Made by a program: the position numbers and the translations under genes. From the NCBI GenBank assembly GCA_026705925.1, contig JAPOZT010000008.1:1-64000 (forward strand): 64,000 nt of DNA, in the 5' to 3' direction. Positions within the stretch are counted from its first letter, which is position 1; each line of letters opens with the position of its first letter. Under the pieces are notes generated by a model. That model was not told the origin of the DNA. It did no database searches and was given only the letters and a program-made list of their open reading frames with translations. Of the stretch, positions 16,024-27,474 are shown in pieces. The stretch is from Gemmatimonadota bacterium (lineage in GTDB: Bacteria > JAAXHH01).

Positions 16024-17541
16024 TCACTGTTGCCCGGACGGCGGCACGTACTGGTTCATGGCGCCGCGCCGGTGATCGAATTCCGGATCATGACTCCACG
16101 TCCGTCCGTGACGCGCCATGGTGTCCCGGATCAGACGCCGTCGGTACAGGCTGGACAGGTTCGCGTCCGCGATGGCATCCGGATCGAAGCGTTCGAGGAT
16201 CCGCTCGCGAAGCCGGGATTCCACCTGGCGGTGCGCGTCGTCGCCCGCGAGATCATGCCATTCGCCCGGATCGTCGTCCAGATCGAAAAGACGGGGCGCG
16301 TACCCGTGGATGTACTGGTACTTGTACCGTCCCTGCCGTGCCATGATGCAGGGCATGCCCACGGCCTCGTGGGCCTGGGCGAAGACCACGCGGTCCGCTT
16401 CGTCCGGGGAGGACGATACCAGGCTCTCGCCGTCGTGGGGCAGCCGTTCCTCGACGCCCGCGATATCGCAGAAGGTCGGCAGCAGATCGACCAGGGACAC
16501 GGGATGGGCACAGGTCGTCCCCGCCCGCCATCCGTCCGGATAGCGGACGATGAGGGGCACCCGGCAGGACCTCTCGTAGAAACACCGCTTCTGCACCATG
16601 CCGCGTTCGCACAGCATGTCGCCGTGATCGCTGGCGAATACCACCACCGTGTTTTCCGCCAGGCCGGTCTCGTCCAGGGTGTCCAGCAGGCCGCCGACCT
16701 TGTCGTCCATGTAGCTCACCAGCGCGTAATAGGCGCGGCGAAGACGGTAGAGGCCCTCTTCGTCCCGCAGGTCGTAACGGCCGGTACCATGATAGGCGTT
16801 CAGGTTCCGGTCCATCATGGAATGGCGTTCATCCAGGTCGGCCGGAAGCCAGGGCAGTTCGATGTCCGCACCTTCGTACCGGGCCCAGTAGGACTCGGGC
16901 GGCCAGAACGGTTCATGGGGATGGTGATAGGACGCGCACAGCAGGAACGGTTCTTCCGCCCCGCCCGGTTTCCTGGACCGCAGGTATTCGACCGCGCGGA
17001 AATGCGTTTCCTCGTCGTAGCTGAGGGCGTTGTGCCAGACGCCTATCCGCACGCCGTCGCCCGTGTACCCCGCTGCGTTGTAAGCCGGCCGGGCGGCCAT
17101 CACCTGCTCGCAGTCCTCGCCCCCGGTCTCCTTCAGGCGGATCCACTCCGGCTTGACCCAGTCGAAATCCGAGGAATAGATGTCGGTGGTCAGCCGCATT
17201 CTGAAACCGTGCAACTGGTCCGGACCGATGAAGTGCATCTTGCCGGACAGCACGGTATCGTAACCCGCGCGAGCCAGGTAGTGGGCAAAGGTCGGCTGGT
17301 CGGCGGCCAGCAATGCGCCATTGTCCCATGCGCCGATTTCCGATGCATGCCTTCCTGTCATCAGGCAGGCCCGGCCGGGCGCGCAGAGGGGAAAGGCGGT
17401 GTAGGCGGCGTCGTAACGCACGCCGGTTTCCACCATGCGGTCCAGGTTGGGGGTCCGTACGACGGGATGGCCATATGCACCGGTCAAAGCGGCAACCATC
17501 TGGTCGGACACGATAAGGAGGATGTTGGGCTGGTCGGCCAT
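16024..17541 (-). CDS. Choline-sulfatase-like sulfatase
   Basis: The product is 505 residues with a complete sulfatase core. The metal Asp pair is in LLIVSDQM; the formylglycine Cys is C53 in CAPGR (C-x-P-x-R). The blocks SGKMHFIGPDQLHGF and RLTTDIYSSDFDW are the features I know from choline-sulfatases (BetC type), as is the RGMVQKRCFYE region. It therefore probably cleaves choline-O-sulfate or a similar small sulfate ester in the cytoplasm; there is no signal peptide. No betaine synthesis genes are adjacent, so the substrate remains an inference from family resemblance. Confidence 0.88.
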   Translation of the reverse strand: MADQPNILLIVSDQMVAALTGAYGHPVVRTPNLDRMVETGVRYDAAYTAFPLCAPGRACLMTGRHASEIGAWDNGALLAADQPTFAHYLARAGYDTVLSGKMHFIGPDQLHGFRMRLTTDIYSSDFDWVKPEWIRLKETGGEDCEQVMAARPAYNAAGYTGDGVRIGVWHNALSYDEETHFRAVEYLRSRKPGGAEEPFLLCASYHHPHEPFWPPESYWARYEGADIELPWLPADLDERHSMMDRNLNAYHGTGRYDLRDEEGLYRLRRAYYALVSYMDDKVGGLLDTLDETGLAENTVVVFASDHGDMLCERGMVQKRCFYERSCRVPLIVRYPDGWRAGTTCAHPVSLVDLLPTFCDIAGVEERLPHDGESLVSSSPDEADRVVFAQAHEAVGMPCIMARQGRYKYQYIHGYAPRLFDLDDDPGEWHDLAGDDAHRQVESRLRERILERFDPDAIADANLSSLYRRRLIRDTMARHGRTWSHDPEFDHRRGAMNQYVPPSGQQ

Positions 17542-17601: not shown

Positions 17602-18453
17602 CTACCGCTGCCGGCGGCCTCCACGCCGGGTCGGTGTCACGGCCTCGAAATGGATGTTCCGTGTCATCTCGGCGAGCGGAATCGCCGACATCAACACGGC
17701 GCAAGCGCTCGCGGGACCGCCGACCATCAGAAACAGGCCGAAATCGCGCAGTGTACCGTCTGTGACGACAGCCAGCGGGGCGGCGATCAACAGGACGGCC
17801 AGCCCGGCCAGCACCAGGAAGGGCATAGCCTGCACCATGCCGGTACGTACGGAATGGCTGACCGGTTCCCGCCGCGCGGTTTCAATCTTGCATCTGACCA
17901 GGCTGTATCCCAGGAAGGCCATGACCACCGCCAGTGCCCCCGTGGACGTGAGCGTCAGTATGCCCGGTACGGTAATCCGGTCTGCCAGGCCAAGGGTGAT
18001 CCCCGCCGTGACGAACATGGTGTAAAGGGCGCAACCCATGGCCGCCACGGCGAAACGGGCGCCTATGCGGAGCGACAGGTAGAGGGTGATGATCATGATA
18101 CCGAGCATGGCCCCGTTCCATTCTGCCAGCCAGTCGATCGAACGGGCAAAGGGGAGCAGCATCCGCACGATAGATCCGGCCGCCAGTACACCGAGGGTCA
18201 GCGCGATGCATTTGCCCGGCCGGTCGTCGATCCGCGCACCGACGATGACCAGCACGATCAGCATGGTCACGAAAAGGCCGAAGAGCAGGTCGCCGGACAG
18301 CAGCAGCGCCACCAGGCCGTCGTCGACGGCATGTTCCGCCTTCATCGCCGTTGCGGCAATCCCCGCCGCGGCCAGTATGGCGGCGAAAGTGTAGACGACA
18401 CCCGGTCGGTCGATCAGGTTTCCATACAGTACGGCAAGGCCGTTTACCATCAT
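17602..18453 (-). CDS. SecF-like membrane protein lacking the periplasmic domain
   Basis: The product is 283 residues from the ATG at 18453, whose ATGA overlaps the stop of the SecD-like gene. About eight hydrophobic segments are seen. The last five (from about residue 112) resemble the TM2-TM6 half of SecF. Where SecF has GYSIND, this protein has GYSLVR (182-187), so the conserved Asn and Asp are V186 and R187. The usual periplasmic P4 domain after the first helix is absent and replaced by two extra hydrophobic stretches. Identification rests partly on the overlap with the SecD-like gene. It may be an accessory paralogue of SecF; no standard secDF genes are in the window. Confidence 0.6.
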   Translation of the reverse strand: MMVNGLAVLYGNLIDRPGVVYTFAAILAAAGIAATAMKAEHAVDDGLVALLLSGDLLFGLFVTMLIVLVIVGARIDDRPGKCIALTLGVLAAGSIVRMLLPFARSIDWLAEWNGAMLGIMIITLYLSLRIGARFAVAAMGCALYTMFVTAGITLGLADRITVPGILTLTSTGALAVVMAFLGYSLVRCKIETARREPVSHSVRTGMVQAMPFLVLAGLAVLLIAAPLAVVTDGTLRDFGLFLMVGGPASACAVLMSAIPLAEMTRNIHFEAVTPTRRGGRRQR

Positions 18454-20105
18454 ACGCTCAACTTCCTTATCTGCCAGTCCGCAACCAGGGAGGACAGCAG
18501 CATGTTTGTCCAGCACATACAGGTGAGCAGGCTGCCGGCCGCGCCGGAAAACAGCACGAGGCCGAAATTGACGACGGCGTCGGTGCCGACTACGACCAGG
18601 CTCACCGATACGAGCAGCAGCATGACATGGGTCCAGACCAGGACGGGCCGGATCTTCTCGAGCGAGCCCATGACGTCCTGGCGGACTGAAGACTCCGTTC
18701 CGGATTCCGCCCGAAGGTATTCGAAGATCCAGAGATGCACGGAGACGAAGACGAGGGCCGCTCCGAGTAAACCCACTGCGCCGGCGAGGGTGAAATAGGG
18801 CGCAATCCCGGCGATGTTCCACAGCCTCAGCACCGCTCCGGTCATGATCAGGTAGTGCAGCATCCCCGTGACGAATAGCAGGCCGGCGGCCCGGTACCGG
18901 ATAACGAACATTGCGCAAAGCAATCCGAGACCAATCGCGCCGGCGCCGGCCGCGCTGGACACGGCCCCTTCACCGAGCGGGGAAAGCGCCTCCGCCGCCT
19001 GATCCAGCTGCGCCACGTCCAGGGCCGGCGACGCGGATTCCAGGATGACCGCCAGGGCGCGGGCCTCTTCCAGTGCGTCTCCGCCAGGCACTTCTATCCG
19101 TCCGTCGGGTATTCTGCCCTGTATATTCAACGTCACGTAGACCTGGCCGTTCATCTTGATGGCCACACGGTTTCCCGCGTTGGCGCTGGACACGTTGGCC
19201 AGACTCTCCCTGCCCTCGTCCTGCAGGAACAGGCGTACCGCGTATGCGCCCCGGTTCGCCGTTACCGAAGCGTCGCTGACCACGGCGGACGCCACCGGCT
19301 GCACGTTGAGGTCTACATCCTGGTTGATGAAGTAAAGCGGATGGAACAGCCTGCCTCCCCGTTCCACCGGTTCGGAAGCCCATGCGAAGGCGCCGGCGGG
19401 CGGATTGGCCAGGTTGAAGGCCCGAATCCCGGCCTGTACCGTCGAATCGGCCAGGATGGCCATTACGGCATCCAGGTTGTCTTCACTGACCGCGATGTCC
19501 CCGAACCCTTCCTCCACCGTAATGCGTGCAAGCAGCGCGCTGAATGCGCCAGGTCCGTCCGATGCCGATCCCTCGGGGCCCTCCGATACCGATCCTCCGC
19601 GGTCCGCCGGTTCCTGACCGCCATTTCCGGCGTCCGATGCCGCGACGTCCGAGGCGCGCTCACGAAGGGCATCGTCAATACGTTGCCGCAAGGCCTGTAC
19701 TTCCGCGCCGTCCTTGAATAAATGCAGTGTGATCTCGCCGGATTCCCGGATTATCCTGCTTACGAGCCCGGTGTCCGCGCTCCGGGGCACGACGATTTCG
19801 AACGTGTCGTTCTCCCGCGCGGTAATGACCGGTTCGGAGATCCCGAATGCGTTAAGGCGCCGCCGCCAGTTCTCGACCAGGCCTTCCACCGCCCGCGCCC
19901 TGCCCCGTTCCGTGTACCGGGACAGGTCCATGCCTGCAACCAGGCGATAACCGCCGGCCAGGTCGATGCCCGGTACCGTGGACTGGCCGTAAAGCACTTT
20001 TCTTTCTTCAGGCGATAGCGCTTCGACGGACTCGGGAGATGAAAACCACAGCCTGATGGTCGGGGAGACAAGGACCGCGCCAAGCAGGGTGACGGCGAGA
20101 AACAC
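18450..20105 (-). CDS. Divergent SecD-like protein translocase subunit
   Basis: About 551 residues from the GTG at 20105. The open frame extends to 20156 without ATG, GTG or TTG. The extension adds YKRISFL, which suits a SecD N-terminus, so a rare start such as ATC at 20129 after AAAGGA is possible. GIDLAGGYRLVAGMD (46-60) matches the SecD GLDLxGG block, and five C-terminal helices follow. The SecD proton-relay motif VDANVLIFER reads VSVHLWIFEY: Asp is S455 and Asn is H457. A Gly/Ser/Asp-rich linker lies near 150-188. It probably sits in the inner membrane with the SecF-like protein. Whether it can use the proton gradient is doubtful. Confidence 0.7.
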   Translation of the reverse strand: MFLAVTLLGAVLVSPTIRLWFSSPESVEALSPEERKVLYGQSTVPGIDLAGGYRLVAGMDLSRYTERGRARAVEGLVENWRRRLNAFGISEPVITARENDTFEIVVPRSADTGLVSRIIRESGEITLHLFKDGAEVQALRQRIDDALRERASDVAASDAGNGGQEPADRGGSVSEGPEGSASDGPGAFSALLARITVEEGFGDIAVSEDNLDAVMAILADSTVQAGIRAFNLANPPAGAFAWASEPVERGGRLFHPLYFINQDVDLNVQPVASAVVSDASVTANRGAYAVRLFLQDEGRESLANVSSANAGNRVAIKMNGQVYVTLNIQGRIPDGRIEVPGGDALEEARALAVILESASPALDVAQLDQAAEALSPLGEGAVSSAAGAGAIGLGLLCAMFVIRYRAAGLLFVTGMLHYLIMTGAVLRLWNIAGIAPYFTLAGAVGLLGAALVFVSVHLWIFEYLRAESGTESSVRQDVMGSLEKIRPVLVWTHVMLLLVSVSLVVVGTDAVVNFGLVLFSGAAGSLLTCMCWTNMLLSSLVADWQIRKLSV

Positions 20106-20179
20106 CAGGAATGAAATGCGCTTGTAGATAGTGCTGTTCCTTTCGGTACCGCTTCTTTAGTGCGGCGTGGCCGCACGGG

Positions 20180-20938
20180 TTACCATTCTGCCTGGGACCT
20201 CGGCGCGTGGCGGATGATGCCGATCATGTCGCGGACGGCTTGCTCGAACCCGATGGTCATCGCCCGCACGGCCACGGCGTAGCCCACCACCATTTCCTCC
20301 ACCTCGGCGATCCCCGCCAGGTCCGCCGCCGTCCGGTAATCGACGCCGCGTCCCAGGGAAACGCCCATGTTCAACCGTGCCGCGGTCCGGGCCGTACCGG
20401 CGATTTCCTGGAACATCCGGCCCTTCTCTTCGGGACCGGCGGCCTGTACGAACCGGCTTGCGTCAAGATGGACGTAGTCTGCCTTGAATTCGGCGCATTG
20501 CCTGACATGCGACGCGGTGGGCGTGATCAATATACTCGTCAGGATCCCTTTATCCTGCAGGGCCTTCAGCATGCGTTCCACCGGCCGTTCCAGGGAATCG
20601 CCTTCGGGCCATGGCGTATCGGACCAGTCGTTATTCAGGCCGGCGTGCCCGTAGCCCTCGGGAACAAGGGTAACCATATCGGGCGAAATCGTCAAGATAC
20701 TACGCAGGGCTTCCAGGTCCGGCGGCACGATCACGTTAAGGTGCGTGTGCACGAGCTGCCTGATGATGTCATATTCCCCGCCGAGGTAGAGCGAATCTTC
20801 GGCAGCCCACGAAATCGTTACGGCGTCCGCCCCGCTCACCTGGGACATCATGACCGCGGTCATGGGATCGGGTTCCCCCCGTTTCGCGATATTCCGCAGG
20901 GCGGCGACCTGGTCTACGCATACACTCAGTTTTACCAT
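20180..20938 (-). CDS. PdxJ-like TIM-barrel protein lacking active-site residues
   Basis: The product is 252 residues, slightly longer than the usual 240 of pyridoxine 5'-phosphate synthase. The order of blocks follows PdxJ: LSVCVDQVAALRN, PDMVTLVPEG, SLGRGVDY, and VVGYAVAVRAM with a C-terminal AVRDMIGII. Expected catalytic positions are changed. HLRED-RRH is replaced by SWAAEDSLYL, NLEMA by NVIVPP, the His of AGHG by Arg, and the His of IGHA by Tyr. I infer that it does not make pyridoxine phosphate by the known mechanism. It lies 15 bases upstream of nothing recognisable as vitamin B6 metabolism; neighbours are the SecD-like and YibQ-like genes. Confidence 0.7.
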   Translation of the reverse strand: MVKLSVCVDQVAALRNIAKRGEPDPMTAVMMSQVSGADAVTISWAAEDSLYLGGEYDIIRQLVHTHLNVIVPPDLEALRSILTISPDMVTLVPEGYGHAGLNNDWSDTPWPEGDSLERPVERMLKALQDKGILTSILITPTASHVRQCAEFKADYVHLDASRFVQAAGPEEKGRMFQEIAGTARTAARLNMGVSLGRGVDYRTAADLAGIAEVEEMVVGYAVAVRAMTIGFEQAVRDMIGIIRHAPRSQAEW

Positions 20939-20953
20939 GGGTGATCTCCGGTG

Positions 20954-22234
20954 TCAGTTGTCCACGAGGTCGGAAACCCGAACGAACTCGATCCCTCTGA
21001 TTTCAAGATACCTCATCCGGTCCATCAGCACCTGAAGGGTGTGGAGCCTGGCATCGGCGATGACGACGGCGCGGGTGTCGTCCAGGGCGGACAGCGACGC
21101 GCGGTCCAGGTTCATGGATATGATTACGGGGTTGTACAAGGGATCGAGCACACCCCAGGCCCGAAGGCGGCCGCTTTCCCCGTCCCGGTCCTCCGGCCCG
21201 CCTCCGCCTGGTCCGCCTGGTCCGCCTGCGTTGGCCGAACCGGCTGATGCGCCCGGCCCTCCCGCCCCGCCCGGGTTGTCCAGGTAGTACAGGTTCCGCT
21301 TGGCCAGTTCGTCCAGCACGGGAGCCAGCACCTCGGCTTCATTTTCTGTGCGACCGGCAGGATACCGAAGTACACCCTGAGCCCCGGGTAGCGTGGCAAG
21401 GGCGTCTTCCACGACGCGGCGGTTGGTGAGCTCCGAATGCGTGGGCGACACGGATCTCCTGCGTGGCAGACCGGCGGCGTCTGACGCCGGTTGAACGGGC
21501 AGCAGCGCCATGACCTCGTGATCGCCGCGCGTGAGTTCGGCGGCCATTTCGTTTACGCCGTCTGCCCAGGGAAACAGGGCGAAAGTGAGGGGCCTGGTGA
21601 AATCGGAAAGTCCCTCGACCACGGCCCGCTGATCGCCGTCCGTATACGCAATCACGACGGCAAGACGACCCGTTTTTCGCTGGATAGCCGGGTCGCGGGT
21701 TATATTGAGGCGATGGGTTACGTCGTCATCGAAGGTGATGTCGAGCATCAACTCCCCGGACCTGGTCCGTTCCTCCGCACGGGATACCTTGCCGCCCGCC
21801 CGGACGACCGCCCTGGCGATCTCGAGATTGCATTCGGTAAGCGAATAAGTACCCGAAACGATGATCCTTCGTTCCAGGGGCCTCCAACGGCCAGTGGCCG
21901 TCGCGGTGCGTGGCGCGGTGTCCCGTATCTGGTCCGGTGTGACCTGCAGATTCATGAACGCACCGTACAGGGCCGCTTCCATTGCGTGAAACGCCTCCTG
22001 GTCCGTTTTCCAGGCAGACGTTCTTTCGAGCCCGGGCACGGCAACCGGGATGGGCCGGTCCAGCAGCCAGTCCACGACCTTCCTGGCCTGGTTTTGGTAC
22101 AGCATGATCCACACGGCGAGGGCCAGCAGCACGACCGCGGCCGTTCCGAGGAGGGCGTTCCGGGCGTACGACCGGCGCTGGCTCTTGGTGATCGCCATCC
22201 GGGTTCTGGCCGAATGTGAATAGCGAAAGCGCAT
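20954..22234 (-). CDS. YibQ-like divergent polysaccharide deacetylase-fold protein
   Basis: About 426 residues (or 414 from the ATG at 22198). A basic N-terminus is followed by one transmembrane helix (about 27-46), so most of the protein is periplasmic. From about residue 195 the sequence follows the YibQ fold: RLAVVIAY, PLTFALFPWADGVNEMA, HEVMALLPVQP, NLYYLDNP. The metal and catalytic motifs of the family are not kept: DDFG reads YTDG, HLPM reads LLPV, and NNHMGS is missing. A Gly/Pro/Ala-rich insert with short repeats lies after YYLDNPG. It may bind peptidoglycan or glycan without cleaving it. The gene starts 11 bases from the rsmA stop, probably one operon. Confidence 0.65.
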   Translation of the reverse strand: MRFRYSHSARTRMAITKSQRRSYARNALLGTAAVVLLALAVWIMLYQNQARKVVDWLLDRPIPVAVPGLERTSAWKTDQEAFHAMEAALYGAFMNLQVTPDQIRDTAPRTATATGRWRPLERRIIVSGTYSLTECNLEIARAVVRAGGKVSRAEERTRSGELMLDITFDDDVTHRLNITRDPAIQRKTGRLAVVIAYTDGDQRAVVEGLSDFTRPLTFALFPWADGVNEMAAELTRGDHEVMALLPVQPASDAAGLPRRRSVSPTHSELTNRRVVEDALATLPGAQGVLRYPAGRTENEAEVLAPVLDELAKRNLYYLDNPGGAGGPGASAGSANAGGPGGPGGGGPEDRDGESGRLRAWGVLDPLYNPVIISMNLDRASLSALDDTRAVVIADARLHTLQVLMDRMRYLEIRGIEFVRVSDLVDN

Positions 22235-22245
22235 ATCGCGGCCCG

Positions 22246-23118
22246 TCAGCAGTCGTCCTGGTGTTGGTCCCGGAACGCCCGAAGCGCGTCGGCAAGCAGC
22301 GCGAACTCGTTCAGGTCCAGGGTTTCACCGCGTCGTTTCAGATCGATGCCGGTATGGTCCGAAAGATAACCGGCGGAACCGGGAACCAGGCGATTCATCG
22401 CGTGGTGCAGCATCTTGCGCCGGTGTTGAAAGGCCGACTTGATCACGACGTTCAACAGGCCGGCATCCCTGACCGTAACAGGCGGCCGTTCATGGGGCGT
22501 CAACCGGAGGACGACCGAGTCCACCGCCGGACGGGGAACGAACCGGTCGCCGCCCACCCGGAACAGCGATTCCACGCGGTAATGGTACGCCATGATGGCG
22601 GTTATCGCGCCGTAGGCTTTCGTACCCGGATGCGCCGTCAGGCGTCCGCCCACTTCGTGCTGAACCATGATGACCGCGCAACTGATCTTTCCGCGATGGG
22701 CGATCAGCCGGTCGAGGACGGGCCCCGTTATCCCGTAGGGCAGATTGGCCACGAGCACGAACCCGGTCTTGCCATAGTTCCCCATCAGGTCGGACAGGTC
22801 CAGGTCGAGCACGTCCCCGTTCACGATGGTCAGGCGGTCGTATCGGCCATAGGCTTCCTGGAGGACTCCCGCCAGCCTGGAATCGATTTCCACGGCGGTC
22901 ACGCCGCCGGCCAGGGTGACGAGGTGACGGGTCAACGCGCCGGCCCCCGGACCGATTTCGAGTACGGCCGTATCCTTCGTTACGCCCGCCGATTCGATGA
23001 TGCGGCGCGCGATGGACGTATCGTTCAGGAAATGCTGACCCTTCGATCTGGATGGACGAAATTCCGATCGGCGCAGGCTGGCCAACAGGTCTTCAGGAGG
23101 ATCGAGCACCGTACTCAA
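22246..23118 (-). CDS. rsmA: 16S rRNA dimethyladenosine transferase
   Basis: The product is 290 residues, typical for RsmA/KsgA. The SAM site is EIGPGAGALT, the acidic end of the second strand is VEID, and the catalytic NLPYGIT is present. QHFLND near residue 29 is the standard N-terminal motif, and FVPRPAVDS the standard linker. It dimethylates two adjacent adenosines in the helix 45 loop of 16S rRNA during small-subunit maturation. Its start overlaps the tatD-family stop by four bases (ATGA), which indicates co-translation. Confidence 0.95.
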   Translation of the reverse strand: MSTVLDPPEDLLASLRRSEFRPSRSKGQHFLNDTSIARRIIESAGVTKDTAVLEIGPGAGALTRHLVTLAGGVTAVEIDSRLAGVLQEAYGRYDRLTIVNGDVLDLDLSDLMGNYGKTGFVLVANLPYGITGPVLDRLIAHRGKISCAVIMVQHEVGGRLTAHPGTKAYGAITAIMAYHYRVESLFRVGGDRFVPRPAVDSVVLRLTPHERPPVTVRDAGLLNVVIKSAFQHRRKMLHHAMNRLVPGSAGYLSDHTGIDLKRRGETLDLNEFALLADALRAFRDQHQDDC

Positions 23119-23879
23119 TGGATTCGAAACACCTTGTTCGCGTTCTGGGTTGTGGTCCGTGCCAGTTCATCCACGGAAACGGCCCGGTGACGGGCGACCG
23201 CTTCGGCAGTGCTTACGAGGTATGATGGTTCGTTCCGGCGTCCGCGGTGGGGTACGGGCGCGAGCCAGGGTGCGTCCGTTTCGACAAGGATGCGTTCCGG
23301 CGGCAACCCGGAGACCACCTCGCCCACCGTCGAATTCTTGAATGTGGCGATGCCGCCGAACCCCAGGAAGCATCCCATGGAAACAGCCCTTTCGGCCATG
23401 GTGGCGTCCCCGGTAAAGCAGTGCAGGATCGCGGTCGTTTCCTCCCCGGGAAACTCGTCCAGCATGGCCATGACCTCGGCATGGGCGTCCCGGTCGTGCA
23501 CGATAACCGGCAGTCCCGTGCTTCGGCCCCACTCCATGTGTCTTCTGAACGACGTTTCCTGCAGCGGATAGGTGGACCGGTCGTAATGCAGGTCGATGCC
23601 GGTTTCGCCGACGGCGATGACGGACGGATGTTCCAGCAGTTTCTCGATTTCCCGGTAGTCCTCTTCACGGGCTTCGTGGACGTGGCAGGGATGGATGCCC
23701 GCGGCGGCGTACACGGAATCGCAGGTTTCGGCGAGCGCCATGGCGGACCTGCTGCTCTCCAGATCGTACCCCACGGCAACCATGCGTTCCACGCCCGCGT
23801 CCAGCGCCCGTTGGATCACCTCGGCGCGGTCGTCGTCGAATGCTTCGTCCGTGAGATGGGTATGCGTATCGAACAGCAA
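23115..23879 (-). CDS. TatD family metal-dependent hydrolase
   Basis: The product is 254 residues. All family landmarks are seen: DTHTHL with the two metal His, GETGIDLH with the bridging Glu, VHDRDAH, HCFTG and ETDAPWLAP. TatD proteins are metal-dependent nucleases, with proposed roles in DNA repair or RNA quality control. The product is cytoplasmic with no signal peptide. It is followed by rsmA with a four-base overlap, an arrangement common in many bacteria (metG-tatD-rsmA), which is also seen here. Confidence 0.93.
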   Translation of the reverse strand: MLFDTHTHLTDEAFDDDRAEVIQRALDAGVERMVAVGYDLESSRSAMALAETCDSVYAAAGIHPCHVHEAREEDYREIEKLLEHPSVIAVGETGIDLHYDRSTYPLQETSFRRHMEWGRSTGLPVIVHDRDAHAEVMAMLDEFPGEETTAILHCFTGDATMAERAVSMGCFLGFGGIATFKNSTVGEVVSGLPPERILVETDAPWLAPVPHRGRRNEPSYLVSTAEAVARHRAVSVDELARTTTQNANKVFRIH

Positions 23880-23955: not shown

Positions 23956-26100
23956 TCAGGAAACTGGCGAACCGGATCGGACTCGTGCGTCCGGACCGAG
24001 GAGGATGGGGGCGCCGCCGTCGTCTTCGGCCGCGAGCAGCATGCCCATGGATTCCACGCCGCGGATAGTCGCGGGCTCCAGGTTCGCCACCACCACGATC
24101 TGCCGGCCGACCAGTTTCTCCGGCGTGTATCCGGGGGCAATCCCGGACACGATTTGCCGCTCTTCCGTACCGATGCGCAGCTGCAGCCTGAGCAGCCGGT
24201 CCGTTCCGGCTACCGGTTCCGCCGCCACGACATCTGCGATGCGTAAATCGATCTGACGGAAATCGTCGATCGATATAAGTTCGTTTCGCTCGGACGTAGT
24301 TGATTCCGACCCGGCCGGGGCCGCTTCCACGGACGCCGCCTCGGTGGGCGCCGCTTCCGCTTCGTCGGATTTCGACCCGGCGGGCGCGGCTTCCCTGGAC
24401 TGCGTCCCGCCGTCTCCCCGTTCATCGGACCGGCCCAGTCTCGCGATCTGCGCGTCGATCGCGTCGTCCTCGATCTTGTGAAACAGAATCTCGATTTCGC
24501 CGATGGGACGGCCGGAAAGCGACGCATCGATTTTGATTTCGTCCCAGTTCTGCTCATCGACGCGCCCTTCCAGGCCTACCATCTTCCACAGCCGCTCGGC
24601 GCTGAACGGCAGGATGGGCGACATGACCACGGCGAGGACCCTCACCGCCTGCACGCAAACGTGGAGCGTGGCGGCGCAACGCGCCCGGTCGGTCTTGCGC
24701 GTGTTCCAGGGCGCCTGGTCGTTGAAGTACCGGTTGCACTGGTTTCCCAGGGCGATCAGCTCCCGTACGGCACCCCGCACCTGGAACGATTCGAAACAAG
24801 CGCCCACACGTTCCGGCGCGCCGGCCACCGACGACAACATCTCCCGGTCCTCCGGCGAAAAGGTCCCCGGTTCCGGGATCACGCCGTCGAAATACCGGTT
24901 GATGAAGGTCAGCGTCCGGTTCACGAAATTCCCGAAGATATCGGCCAGTTCGTTGTTGTTGCGCGCCTGGAAGTCCTTCCAGGTAAAGTCGGAATCCTTG
25001 GTCTCGGGCGAAATCGACGCCAGGCAGTAACGCATGGGATCGGGCGGGAAGTCCTCAAGGTATTCGTCCAGCCAGACCGCCCAGTTCCGGCTCGTGGACA
25101 GCTTCTGGCCCTCGATGTTGAGAAACTCGTTAGCCGGGATCTCCGAAGGCAGGACGAAATCACCGTGCTCCATGATCATGGCCGGCCAAAGGATCGCGTG
25201 GAAGACGATGTTGTCCTTGCCGAGGAAATTGACGAGCTTGCAGTCCGGGTTCAGCCAGTAGTCCTTCCACCGGTCGGGGTCGCCCTGCGCCACCGCCCAT
25301 TCCCGGGTGGACGACACGTAGCCCAGCGTGTTCTCGAACCAGACGTACATGACCTTGCCCACCGCTTCCTCGATCGGCAGTTCCACGCCCCAATCCAGGT
25401 CCCGGGAGATGGGCCGGTCGGACAGCCCTTCGTTGAACCAGCCCTGGCAGTAATTGCGCACGTTGACCTTCCAGTGCGTCTTCGTATCGATCCAGGCCTG
25501 CAGCCGGTCGGACATGCGGGCGAGCTTGAAATACCAGTGGTTGGCCGGTCTGACCTCGAGCGGTCCTTTGCAGACATCGCTGTGGGGATCGATAAGCTGC
25601 GTGGCGTCCAGGATGGTGCCGCAGGCCTCGCACTGGTCTCCCCGGGCCCGGTCGGAACCGCAGTGGGGACAGGTGCCCTCCACGTAGCGGTCGGGCAGAA
25701 AGCGGCCGTTTGCCGGACAGTAGATCTGGTCGACCTCGCGCACGTCGAAACAGCCCTTCTCCTCCAGGCGGCAGAAATAGTCCCGGGCTGTCTCGTGGTG
25801 GATCGGGCGGGAGGTCTGGGAGAAATTGTCGTAGACGATGCCGAAGTCTTCGAGCGCGCCCCGGATGACGGGATAGTACTTGTCCACCAGTTCCTTGGGC
25901 GTGATCCCCTGCTTCTCGGCGGCCAGGGTGATGGCCACGCCGTGGTCGTCCGATCCGCTGACGTGCACGACGTCCCGGCCTTTCAGCCGCTGGTAGCGCA
26001 CGTAGATGTTGCCGGGCAGATGGACGCCTGCGATATGGCCGATATGCAGCTTGCCGTTCGCGTAGGGCAACGCGTCTGTAACGAGTATTTTCTGTGCCAC
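23956..26100 (-). CDS. metG: Methionyl-tRNA synthetase
   Basis: The product is 714 residues. The start is taken as the GTG at 26100, five bases after GAGAGG; a GTG five codons upstream is less well placed. The HIGH motif is HIGH in NGKLHIGHIAG. The Zn-binding knuckle includes CPHCGSDRARGDQCEACG. The KMSKS loop reads KLSTSRNWAVW, a form I associate with the Bacteroidota/FCB lineage enzyme, not a defect. After a Glu/Ala/Ser-rich linker (about 560-610) comes a C-terminal OB-fold tRNA-binding domain (IVSGIAPGYTPEKLVG). It attaches methionine to tRNA(Met). It is upstream of tatD and rsmA in the same run. Confidence 0.95.
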   Translation of the reverse strand: MAQKILVTDALPYANGKLHIGHIAGVHLPGNIYVRYQRLKGRDVVHVSGSDDHGVAITLAAEKQGITPKELVDKYYPVIRGALEDFGIVYDNFSQTSRPIHHETARDYFCRLEEKGCFDVREVDQIYCPANGRFLPDRYVEGTCPHCGSDRARGDQCEACGTILDATQLIDPHSDVCKGPLEVRPANHWYFKLARMSDRLQAWIDTKTHWKVNVRNYCQGWFNEGLSDRPISRDLDWGVELPIEEAVGKVMYVWFENTLGYVSSTREWAVAQGDPDRWKDYWLNPDCKLVNFLGKDNIVFHAILWPAMIMEHGDFVLPSEIPANEFLNIEGQKLSTSRNWAVWLDEYLEDFPPDPMRYCLASISPETKDSDFTWKDFQARNNNELADIFGNFVNRTLTFINRYFDGVIPEPGTFSPEDREMLSSVAGAPERVGACFESFQVRGAVRELIALGNQCNRYFNDQAPWNTRKTDRARCAATLHVCVQAVRVLAVVMSPILPFSAERLWKMVGLEGRVDEQNWDEIKIDASLSGRPIGEIEILFHKIEDDAIDAQIARLGRSDERGDGGTQSREAAPAGSKSDEAEAAPTEAASVEAAPAGSESTTSERNELISIDDFRQIDLRIADVVAAEPVAGTDRLLRLQLRIGTEERQIVSGIAPGYTPEKLVGRQIVVVANLEPATIRGVESMGMLLAAEDDGGAPILLGPDARVRSGSPVS

Positions 26101-26190
26101 GACAACCTCTCGCACACGGGTGAATCATTCCTGGCGGACCGGTTTTGTTCCAGCATCAGAATAGGGTGTGGAAGGGGGTTTGTCAACGGA

Positions 26191-27474
26191 TCAATCGGCG
26201 GCGGGCAGGGCATGGGACGATGTTTCACCGGATGGTCTCTTGCGGGATGGCGCCTGGGTGGCAGGCGTCTGCGGGGGACCCGTGTATCTACGGTTCATTC
26301 TGAGTCTGAGGACGAGTACGAGGAGGGCCAGTTGGACGTGGGCGTTGCGCGCGATGTCCCGCCTGGCTTCCTCGACGGCGGCGATGCCCTTTTCGATTTC
26401 CTCCGCGTTCATCGCGGATGCCCGTTCCCGCAGCGACTCCGTGCAGTCCGCGTTCGAAAGCGTCGGGGACCCGCTCGCCGAGGAGAGGACGAACAGGTCG
26501 CGGTACAGCGAAAGCAGATGGTCGAGTATCTTCTCCCCGACCGGTTCTTCGCGATGAGACGCGGCGAGGGATTCCACCTGCTCGAACAGGTTCAGCGGTG
26601 TCCCATCGTATATACATTCGAGCAGGGCGAAGGCATCTTCACGGATCTTCGAACCCCGCTCCGAACTGGCCGTCAGCGCTTCGGAAATGCGGCCTTCGGA
26701 ACGGCGCGCGAGTTCCCCGGCTTCCTCCGGAGCAACGTCGTATCGCTCGATCAGCGCCGATTTCACTTCGTCTTCCCGCAGGCGCGTAAGAAAAACGGGT
26801 TGGCAACGGGACACGATGGTCGGCAGCAGCCTGCCTGCCCGGGACGCGGTCAAAATGAGCATCAGGGATCCCGGTGGCTCTTCCAGCGTCTTGAGCAGCG
26901 CGTTCGAGGCCGCGGCGTTCATGCGGTCCGCCGCGACGATGATCGCGACCTTCCTCCGTCCTTCGTAAGGTTTGGCCGATGCCTCCCTTCGCAGCGACCG
27001 GACGTCCTCCACGGAAAGCATGTCGTTCATTCCGAAGGGCGGGGCGCCGTAGGGGTCTTCGGCCAGCCGGTCGGCCAGGCCCTGCCTGCGTTCCTCCCGG
27101 GCGTTCGCGCGGCTGGATGAGCCTTCGCCACGGCCGGACGAGCCTTCGCCACGGCCGGACGAGCCTTCGCTGCGGCGGGAAGAACGATCCGGGGGCGGGG
27201 CGGAAGAGGAAGGAACCAGAAGGTGAACGTCGGGGTGCTGCAGCATGCGTATCCGCCGGCAATGGCGGCACGGGGTATGCTCACCAGGCTGGCTGCAGGG
27301 TTCTCCAGGGCCGTTTTCGCAGTTGACCGCGCAGGCGAGCTCAATGGCCAGCGCCTCGGCGCCCTCGCCGGGCGGTCCGGTGAACAGGTACCCGTGGGCC
27401 AGGCGGTCCTTCTTTACGGCCTCCATGAGCCGCTGCCGCTGCCGCTCGTGACCTATAATGCGATCGAATGCCAT
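26191..27474 (-). CDS. holB: DNA polymerase III delta' subunit
   Basis: The product is 427 residues. GHERQRQRL and LAHGYLFTGPPGEGAE open an AAA+ clamp-loader domain with the degenerate P-loop normal for delta'. A Zn module has cysteines in CENGPGEPC and CRHCRRI. NALLKTLEEPP and ILTASRAGRLLPTIVSRCQ are the sensor blocks. It is a structural part of the clamp loader for the replicative polymerase. A low-complexity linker near residues 95-125 carries three 7-residue repeats. The C-terminal 30 residues are also of low complexity. It ends 90 bases before metG and begins 12 bases after the methyltransferase stop. Confidence 0.93.
   Translation of the reverse strand: MAFDRIIGHERQRQRLMEAVKKDRLAHGYLFTGPPGEGAEALAIELACAVNCENGPGEPCSQPGEHTPCRHCRRIRMLQHPDVHLLVPSSSAPPPDRSSRRSEGSSGRGEGSSGRGEGSSSRANAREERRQGLADRLAEDPYGAPPFGMNDMLSVEDVRSLRREASAKPYEGRRKVAIIVAADRMNAAASNALLKTLEEPPGSLMLILTASRAGRLLPTIVSRCQPVFLTRLREDEVKSALIERYDVAPEEAGELARRSEGRISEALTASSERGSKIREDAFALLECIYDGTPLNLFEQVESLAASHREEPVGEKILDHLLSLYRDLFVLSSASGSPTLSNADCTESLRERASAMNAEEIEKGIAAVEEARRDIARNAHVQLALLVLVLRLRMNRRYTGPPQTPATQAPSRKRPSGETSSHALPAAD
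27115..27177. repeat. Three 21-bp tandem repeats inside holB
   Basis: Units begin at 27115, 27136 and 27157; the first two differ at one base and the third at a few. They encode a seven-residue Gly/Glu/Ser/Arg unit (GRGEGSS type) in the linker after the Zn module, so the duplication keeps the reading frame. Confidence 0.85.

Follow-up and report, generated by a model that had tools for sequence, protein, structure and literature searches.

A conserved run of YibQ-, PdxJ-, SecD- and SecF-like genes with altered key residues, probably repurposed from an old and once ordinary cluster

The window analysed here (64,000 nucleotides, positions 1 to 64,000 of contig JAPOZT010000008.1) is part of contig C29 in the genome (G000, 3.77 Mb) of a Gemmatimonadota bacterium, whose close named relatives are 'Candidatus Latescibacterota' metagenome-assembled genomes (MAGs) and MAGs labelled Gemmatimonadetes. 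On its minus strand, four adjacent genes code for proteins resembling YibQ, PdxJ, SecD and SecF in which key residues of these families are replaced. The explanation favoured here, with a probability of roughly 60% and by comparison of sequences, is that they descend vertically from an ancestral rsmA-yibQ-pdxJ-secD-secF cluster and were repurposed stepwise and kept by purifying selection; the four proteins have probably taken on new jobs. The four open reading frames (ORFs) had been recognised in an earlier sequence-only reading, with which the Pfam matches agree. The features of the cluster are the following.

17602..18453, minus strand: SecF-like membrane protein, 283 amino acids, without P4 and with two hydrophobic helices instead; proton-path Asp and Arg gone
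18450..20129, minus strand: SecD-like membrane protein, 559 amino acids counted from an AUC codon, with both the base and the head of P1 retained and the DAN motifs of transmembrane helices 4 and 5 (TM4 and TM5) changed to xxH
20127..20129, minus strand: non-canonical AUC at which the SecD-like gene probably starts; of the 15 loci that include the 5' end, 14 have AUU or AUC here
20138..20143, minus strand: AAAGGA, resembling a Shine-Dalgarno motif, separated from the AUC by 8 nt; its position is conserved
20180..20938, minus strand: PdxJ-like protein, 252 amino acids; active-site residues replaced, active-site loop region six residues longer
20954..22234, minus strand: YibQ/SddA-like protein, 426 amino acids; N-terminal hydrophobic segment, all four zinc ligands replaced

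The order YibQ-PdxJ-SecD-SecF after RsmA has been kept in 14 of the 16 genomes of the phylum, namely the 12 members of the genus (G000–G011), one member of another genus (G013) and one of a third family (G015), which bears out the co-occurrence that the sequence-only reading had proposed to look for. The same arrangement is found far from this group. When the positions of PF04748, PF03740 and TIGR01129 matches were compared by eye in 191 sampled genomes, yibQ and pdxJ were neighbours in at least 12 genomes from outside the bacterium's order, the run yibQ-pdxJ-secD-secF was present in G081, G132 and G151, and holB-x-rsmA-pdxJ-secD-secF in G163. The PdxJ proteins of these four clusters carry canonical residues, with F for the last His in G151 (canonical-residue clusters: loci L059, L104–L107 and L115), and those of G081, G151 and G163 fit the NCBIfam subfamily NF003625 best, as does the PdxJ-like protein of the window. 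Since the same gene order with canonical residues occurs in unrelated genomes, the cluster is best read as old and once ordinary, and the Latescibacterota genes as its positional descendants, repurposed and not newly assembled. In trees, each divergent set (SecD-like and PdxJ-like) forms one clade with 100/100 support, the attachment point being not resolved. As an observation in its own right, the recurrent yibQ-pdxJ-secD-secF order with canonical residues links genes for the cell wall, vitamin B6 and secretion in several unrelated genomes.

The sequence-only reading had asked whether standard secDF and pdxJ genes also occur in the genome, and both are present elsewhere. A fused SecDF of about 900 residues is encoded on C11 (SecD domain 486 bits, cut-off 244; SecF domain 351 bits, cut-off 160) and a second PdxJ on C35 (NCBIfam subfamily NF003626, 345 bits, cut-off 222); no second PF04748 (YibQ) protein was found in the genome. 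Canonical SecD and canonical PdxJ were detected in all 16 phylum genomes of the collection, in some cases as contig-end fragments. That the genome recently duplicated its own PdxJ has been ruled out because its two PdxJ-type proteins are only 25% identical and belong to different NCBIfam subfamilies. In G014, the representative of a second family, the canonical PdxJ (L062, G014:C321) is of a type that differs from the NF003626 of the other families, and this suggests that the canonical function was re-supplied there independently. A comparable situation has been described in Streptomyces coelicolor, which likewise has a fused SecDF together with a separate SecD/SecF pair thought to be vertical; deletion tests showed that both forms aid secretion in that bacterium (PMC4139356), whereas the separate pair studied here has lost its proton-path residues.

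Purifying selection on the four genes is indicated by the ratio of nonsynonymous to synonymous substitution rates (dN/dS), which in pairwise comparisons of the window with ten congeners ranges over 0.11–0.34 for PdxJ, 0.14–0.32 for SecD, 0.20–0.38 for SecF and 0.23–0.45 for YibQ. For PdxJ, SecD and SecF there is large overlap with the ranges of the neighbouring rsmA (0.15–0.31), tatD (0.16–0.30) and holB (0.15–0.26), and only YibQ is clearly looser; the idea of a fast-evolving set, raised in the sequence-only reading, does not fit these values. Pseudogenes were ruled out, because dN/dS lies between 0.11 and 0.45 and the open frames are intact in all genomes.

The PdxJ-like protein is homologous to PdxJ over its full length (Pfam PF03740, 136.4 bits; E about 1e-39, with homology also found against PDB chains), and its best NCBIfam score is 128.8 bits against a cut-off of 190 for the pyridoxine 5'-phosphate synthase equivalog. 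Fifteen orthologs were compared with 16 canonical PdxJ proteins; residue numbers follow the E. coli PdxJ sequence as a guide, and individual residues are assigned to the active site as in PdxJ. Among 64 positions near-invariant in canonical PdxJ proteins, all 15 orthologs preserve 21, mostly Gly, Pro, Asp and Ala of the TIM-barrel framework shared with PdxJ (including G192, G194 and G215), and 25 are replaced in all 15. At 13 of these 25 sites a single new residue is invariant in all orthologs (H45S, L46W, D57E, E72I, T102G, T103L, L107W, F133L, E153H, T156A, H193R, I214V and I218V). Unlike in PdxJ, therefore, the active-site residues H45, E72, E153, H193 and T102/T103 are fixed as S, I, H, R and G/L in 15 of 15 orthologs, and the loss of catalytic residues seen in the sequence-only reading holds against canonical homologs. 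A loop near residue 105 is also six residues longer than in PdxJ and contains an invariant Trp, and residues 95–105 form the active-site loop of PdxJ (PMC10471632). Identity of the PdxJ-like proteins between families is 48–57%. PdxJ homologs without active-site residues were also observed in the unrelated genomes G069 (L114:5890-6597), G068 (L120:5788-6519) and G089 (L121:5363-6169), in each of which they are the sole PF03740 match, and the G069 copy adjoins yibQ; pseudoenzymes may have evolved from PdxJ repeatedly. A literature search covering few subscription journals found no paper on such PdxJ or SecD relatives.

The YibQ-like protein matches Pfam Polysacc_deac_2 (PF04748) with 83.9 bits (cut-off 27.5), and no NCBIfam model matched it. 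This domain is shared with the denuded-glycan deacetylase YibQ/SddA; however, the zinc ligands D31, D32, H78 and H123 of E. coli SddA are replaced in the window protein by A, Y, L and Y, so that the absence of key residues claimed earlier extends to all four ligands. Alanine replacement of zinc ligands abolishes the activity of E. coli SddA, and the loss of all of them is shared with Agrobacterium ATU2773 (2QV5), for which a regulatory role has been proposed (PMC12440217). In contrast to YibQ/SddA, the gene is linked here to rsmA-pdxJ-secD-secF rather than to envC (the ten genes annotated in this neighbourhood include no envC, the rest of the genome not having been searched for it), and the protein has an N-terminal hydrophobic segment and a Gly/Pro-rich low-complexity insertion (21151-21275, minus strand) that splits its PF04748 match. 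The zinc ligands are all intact in G014, some motifs are left in G015, and none in G013 and genus g1, while all of them already have an altered PdxJ and SecD; the decay of YibQ reads as stepwise.

The SecD- and SecF-like proteins are homologous to SecDF (Thermus 3AQP, E. coli SecD/SecF) over the P1 base and head and the membrane part of resistance-nodulation-division (RND) type, and secD and secF are likewise adjacent. The SecD-like protein matches Pfam SecDF_P1_head (PF22599) with 47.4 bits, above the cut-off of 27, and SecD_1st below threshold (23.5 bits), and the SecF-like protein matches SecD_SecF_C with 25.6 bits; these two and the PdxJ-like protein all lie far under the NCBIfam equivalog cut-offs. 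Residues were checked against orthologs, canonical homologs and PDB sequences, among them 3AQP. Thermus D340, D637 and R671, which form the intramembrane proton path, are all replaced. In the SecD-like protein VDAN aligns to VSVH, in agreement with the sequence-only reading: D340 becomes Ser or is variable, and the N342 position, within TM4, is His in 16 of 16 sequences, a similar His being frequent in TM5. In the SecF-like protein, the equivalents of D637 and R671 are non-ionisable. The earlier replacement of GYSIND by GYSLVR was out of register, since that GYS aligns with a VSDRIRE-type segment and the true site reads GALAVVM, but the loss of the Asp is real. The lack of P4 was also correctly noted: segment 45–105 is helical, with hydrophobic helices at 55–74 (Kyte-Doolittle hydropathy, KD, 2.58) and 79–98 (KD 1.45), whereas the canonical P4 reaches at most 0.35, and P4 has become a hydrophobic hairpin. 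The P1 domain of the SecD-like structure model matches the P1 entry 3AQO (TMt 0.65–0.67), and a fold search with the SecF-like protein returned RND and SecDF membrane halves only (E 0.006–0.05), a compatible, weak result. The D340 position corresponds to D519 of E. coli SecD. The D519N variant moves no protons, and the contact between the holotranslocon (HTL) and the β-barrel assembly machinery (BAM) is independent of the proton wire (PMC7695460), so that a proton-dead SecD/F could still bind partners.

At the 5' end of the SecD-like gene there is no conserved in-frame ATG, GTG or TTG, and the gene most likely starts, as judged from sequence, at the AUC at 20129-20127, eight codons upstream of the GTG in the ORF list. 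In 14 of 15 SecD-like loci (ATT/ATC at L043–L054 and L056), AAAGGA or GGAGG is followed after 7–8 nt by ATT or ATC, and G014 has ATG. No standard start exists in this frame from the upstream stop to codon 60 in G004, nor ahead of codon 44 in G005. The infC gene of the same genome (L124, G000:C36) also reads GGGAGGAAAGCC-ATT-CAA-AAG and appears to start with ATT; therefore, AUU initiation appears usable in this genome. The AUU start of infC is the classical start discriminated by initiation factor 3 (IF3). As in that gene and in Streptomyces sigR with its IF3-repressed GTC start (PMC5472188), a non-canonical codon follows a good Shine-Dalgarno sequence and is conserved between species, although the gene is here one for a SecD-like membrane protein and its start has been read from sequence. 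Standard gene finders would miscall such an AUU/AUC start and shorten the SecD-like gene.

On the minus strand, the genes run in the order methyltransferase, holB, metG, tatD, rsmA, YibQ-like, PdxJ-like, SecD-like, SecF-like and sulfatase, and the five upstream of the four-gene cluster are all ordinary. The gaps are short (rsmA-yibQ 11 nt, yibQ-pdxJ 15 nt, pdxJ-secD about 50 nt), and secD and secF share the four-base overlap reported earlier (ATGA, 18450-18453); this spacing is consistent with a single transcript. Elsewhere in the genome, many long RND-type ORFs (about 800–1270 amino acids) weakly match SecD_SecF_C (G000 C13, C29:103937-107579, C18, C35 and C30), and two of them share the contig with the cluster at a distance of about 85 kb. 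The genes flanking the cluster are the following.

16024..17541, minus strand: sulfatase, 3' of the cluster in the same genus only, hence outside the conserved set
22246..23118, minus strand: rsmA (16S rRNA adenine dimethyltransferase), ordinary; precedes yibQ in the run
23115..23879, minus strand: tatD-family nuclease gene, ordinary
23956..26115, minus strand: metG (methionyl-tRNA synthetase), ordinary
26191..27474, minus strand: holB (DNA polymerase III delta' subunit), ordinary

Several observations weigh against stepwise repurposing of one inherited cluster. G014 has YibQ-PdxJ-SecD with no SecF-like gene after secD, where an unrelated gene stands instead (enolase-superfamily-like by sequence reading), and its YibQ zinc ligands are intact despite altered PdxJ and SecD; the four genes have therefore not changed in lock-step. 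In G012, a SecD/F-like pair lies at a contig end and PdxJ- and YibQ-like genes were not detected, through fragmented assembly or loss. The divergent SecD clade sits on a long branch, unplaced among canonical SecDs, which leaves synteny and the PdxJ subfamily as the grounds for descent; the structure model of the SecD-like protein is a weak one (predicted TM-score, pTM, 0.43) and was used for P1 only; and the fused SecDF and second PdxJ may have come by transfer or duplication. A serious competitor, though one held at somewhat under even odds, is that the four genes are independent relics, which lost their functions separately, some after a replacement copy was available, and are kept for unrelated reasons with no joint system. 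The genes that were neighbours in the ancestral cluster serve unrelated functions (vitamin B6, secretion, cell wall), their order is older than the changes, and the changes are staggered, as G014 illustrates, which calls for caution about joint action; yet only these four among the neighbours have lost key residues, and they remain adjacent in three families with few exceptions. This explanation overlaps with the favoured one, both treating the genes as repurposed descendants of the old cluster.

That the proteins are divergent SecDF, PdxJ and deacetylase still carrying out the same reactions through alternative residues is unlikely. The recognisable folds and P1 head, the invariant His in SecD TM4 and the frequent one in TM5, and the PdxJ glycine framework speak for it, but canonical SecDF and PdxJ coexist in these genomes, and the deacetylase ligands, whose replacement by alanine kills E. 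coli SddA activity (PMC12440217), have been lost successively. Neutral decay or fast evolution of genes heading to loss is highly improbable: it would account for the missing key residues and for YibQ being the least constrained gene of the run (dN/dS reaching 0.45), but frames are open in all genomes, dN/dS is well below 1 and near that of rsmA, tatD and holB, and the PdxJ-like proteins are 48–57% identical between families and share 13 new invariant residues where canonical ones were replaced.

Under stepwise repurposing, the classical jobs of PdxJ and SecDF would have moved to other copies (the fused SecDF and a PdxJ that in most families is of the other subfamily), and the old cluster genes would have been changed step by step while held by purifying selection. 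The biochemical roles of all four proteins are inferred. The SecD/SecF-like pair, which keeps the polypeptide-binding P1 domain and an RND-like membrane part and has lost the known proton path, would act as a receptor or modulator at the translocon exit, independent of the proton motive force, in the most economical reading; alternatively, the invariant TM4 His could give the pair a new coupling. The YibQ-like protein may, by analogy with ATU2773, be anchored in the membrane and bind the cell wall or act as a regulator without deacetylating, and the PdxJ-like protein may be a TIM barrel with its pocket rebuilt for another, probably phosphorylated, ligand, binding of a phosphorylated compound being expected from the kept glycine loops. 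The AUU/AUC start may keep SecD-like output low. The non-catalytic envelope system proposed in the sequence-only reading stands in part: origin from standard parts, adjacency, conservation and altered residues are borne out, and the residue losses are real, although the P1 head, the TIM-barrel Gly/Pro/Asp framework and the PF04748 core are still recognisable. 'Non-catalytic' is not established, since the 13 new invariant PdxJ residues and the invariant SecD intramembrane His make new chemistry possible. 'Envelope system' is only partly justified: the PdxJ barrel is cytosolic, and other genomes have this gene order with ordinary genes, so that adjacency alone is no proof of joint action. Rather doubtful is a single new envelope module in which a cytosolic PdxJ-fold ligand sensor, a SecD/SecF-derived pair with a His intramembrane switch and a catalytically silent YibQ reporting on the cell wall would have their level set by an IF3-discriminated AUU/AUC start.

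Automatic annotation may name these genes PdxJ, SecD and SecF, and thereby credit misplaced functions to these genomes. The cluster contributes a protein of PdxJ fold whose pocket has been rebuilt and could be used to test the role of the SecDF periplasmic domain apart from proton coupling. It would also offer a clear case of a housekeeping gene run changing function jointly or in sequence, with intermediates visible in living relatives.

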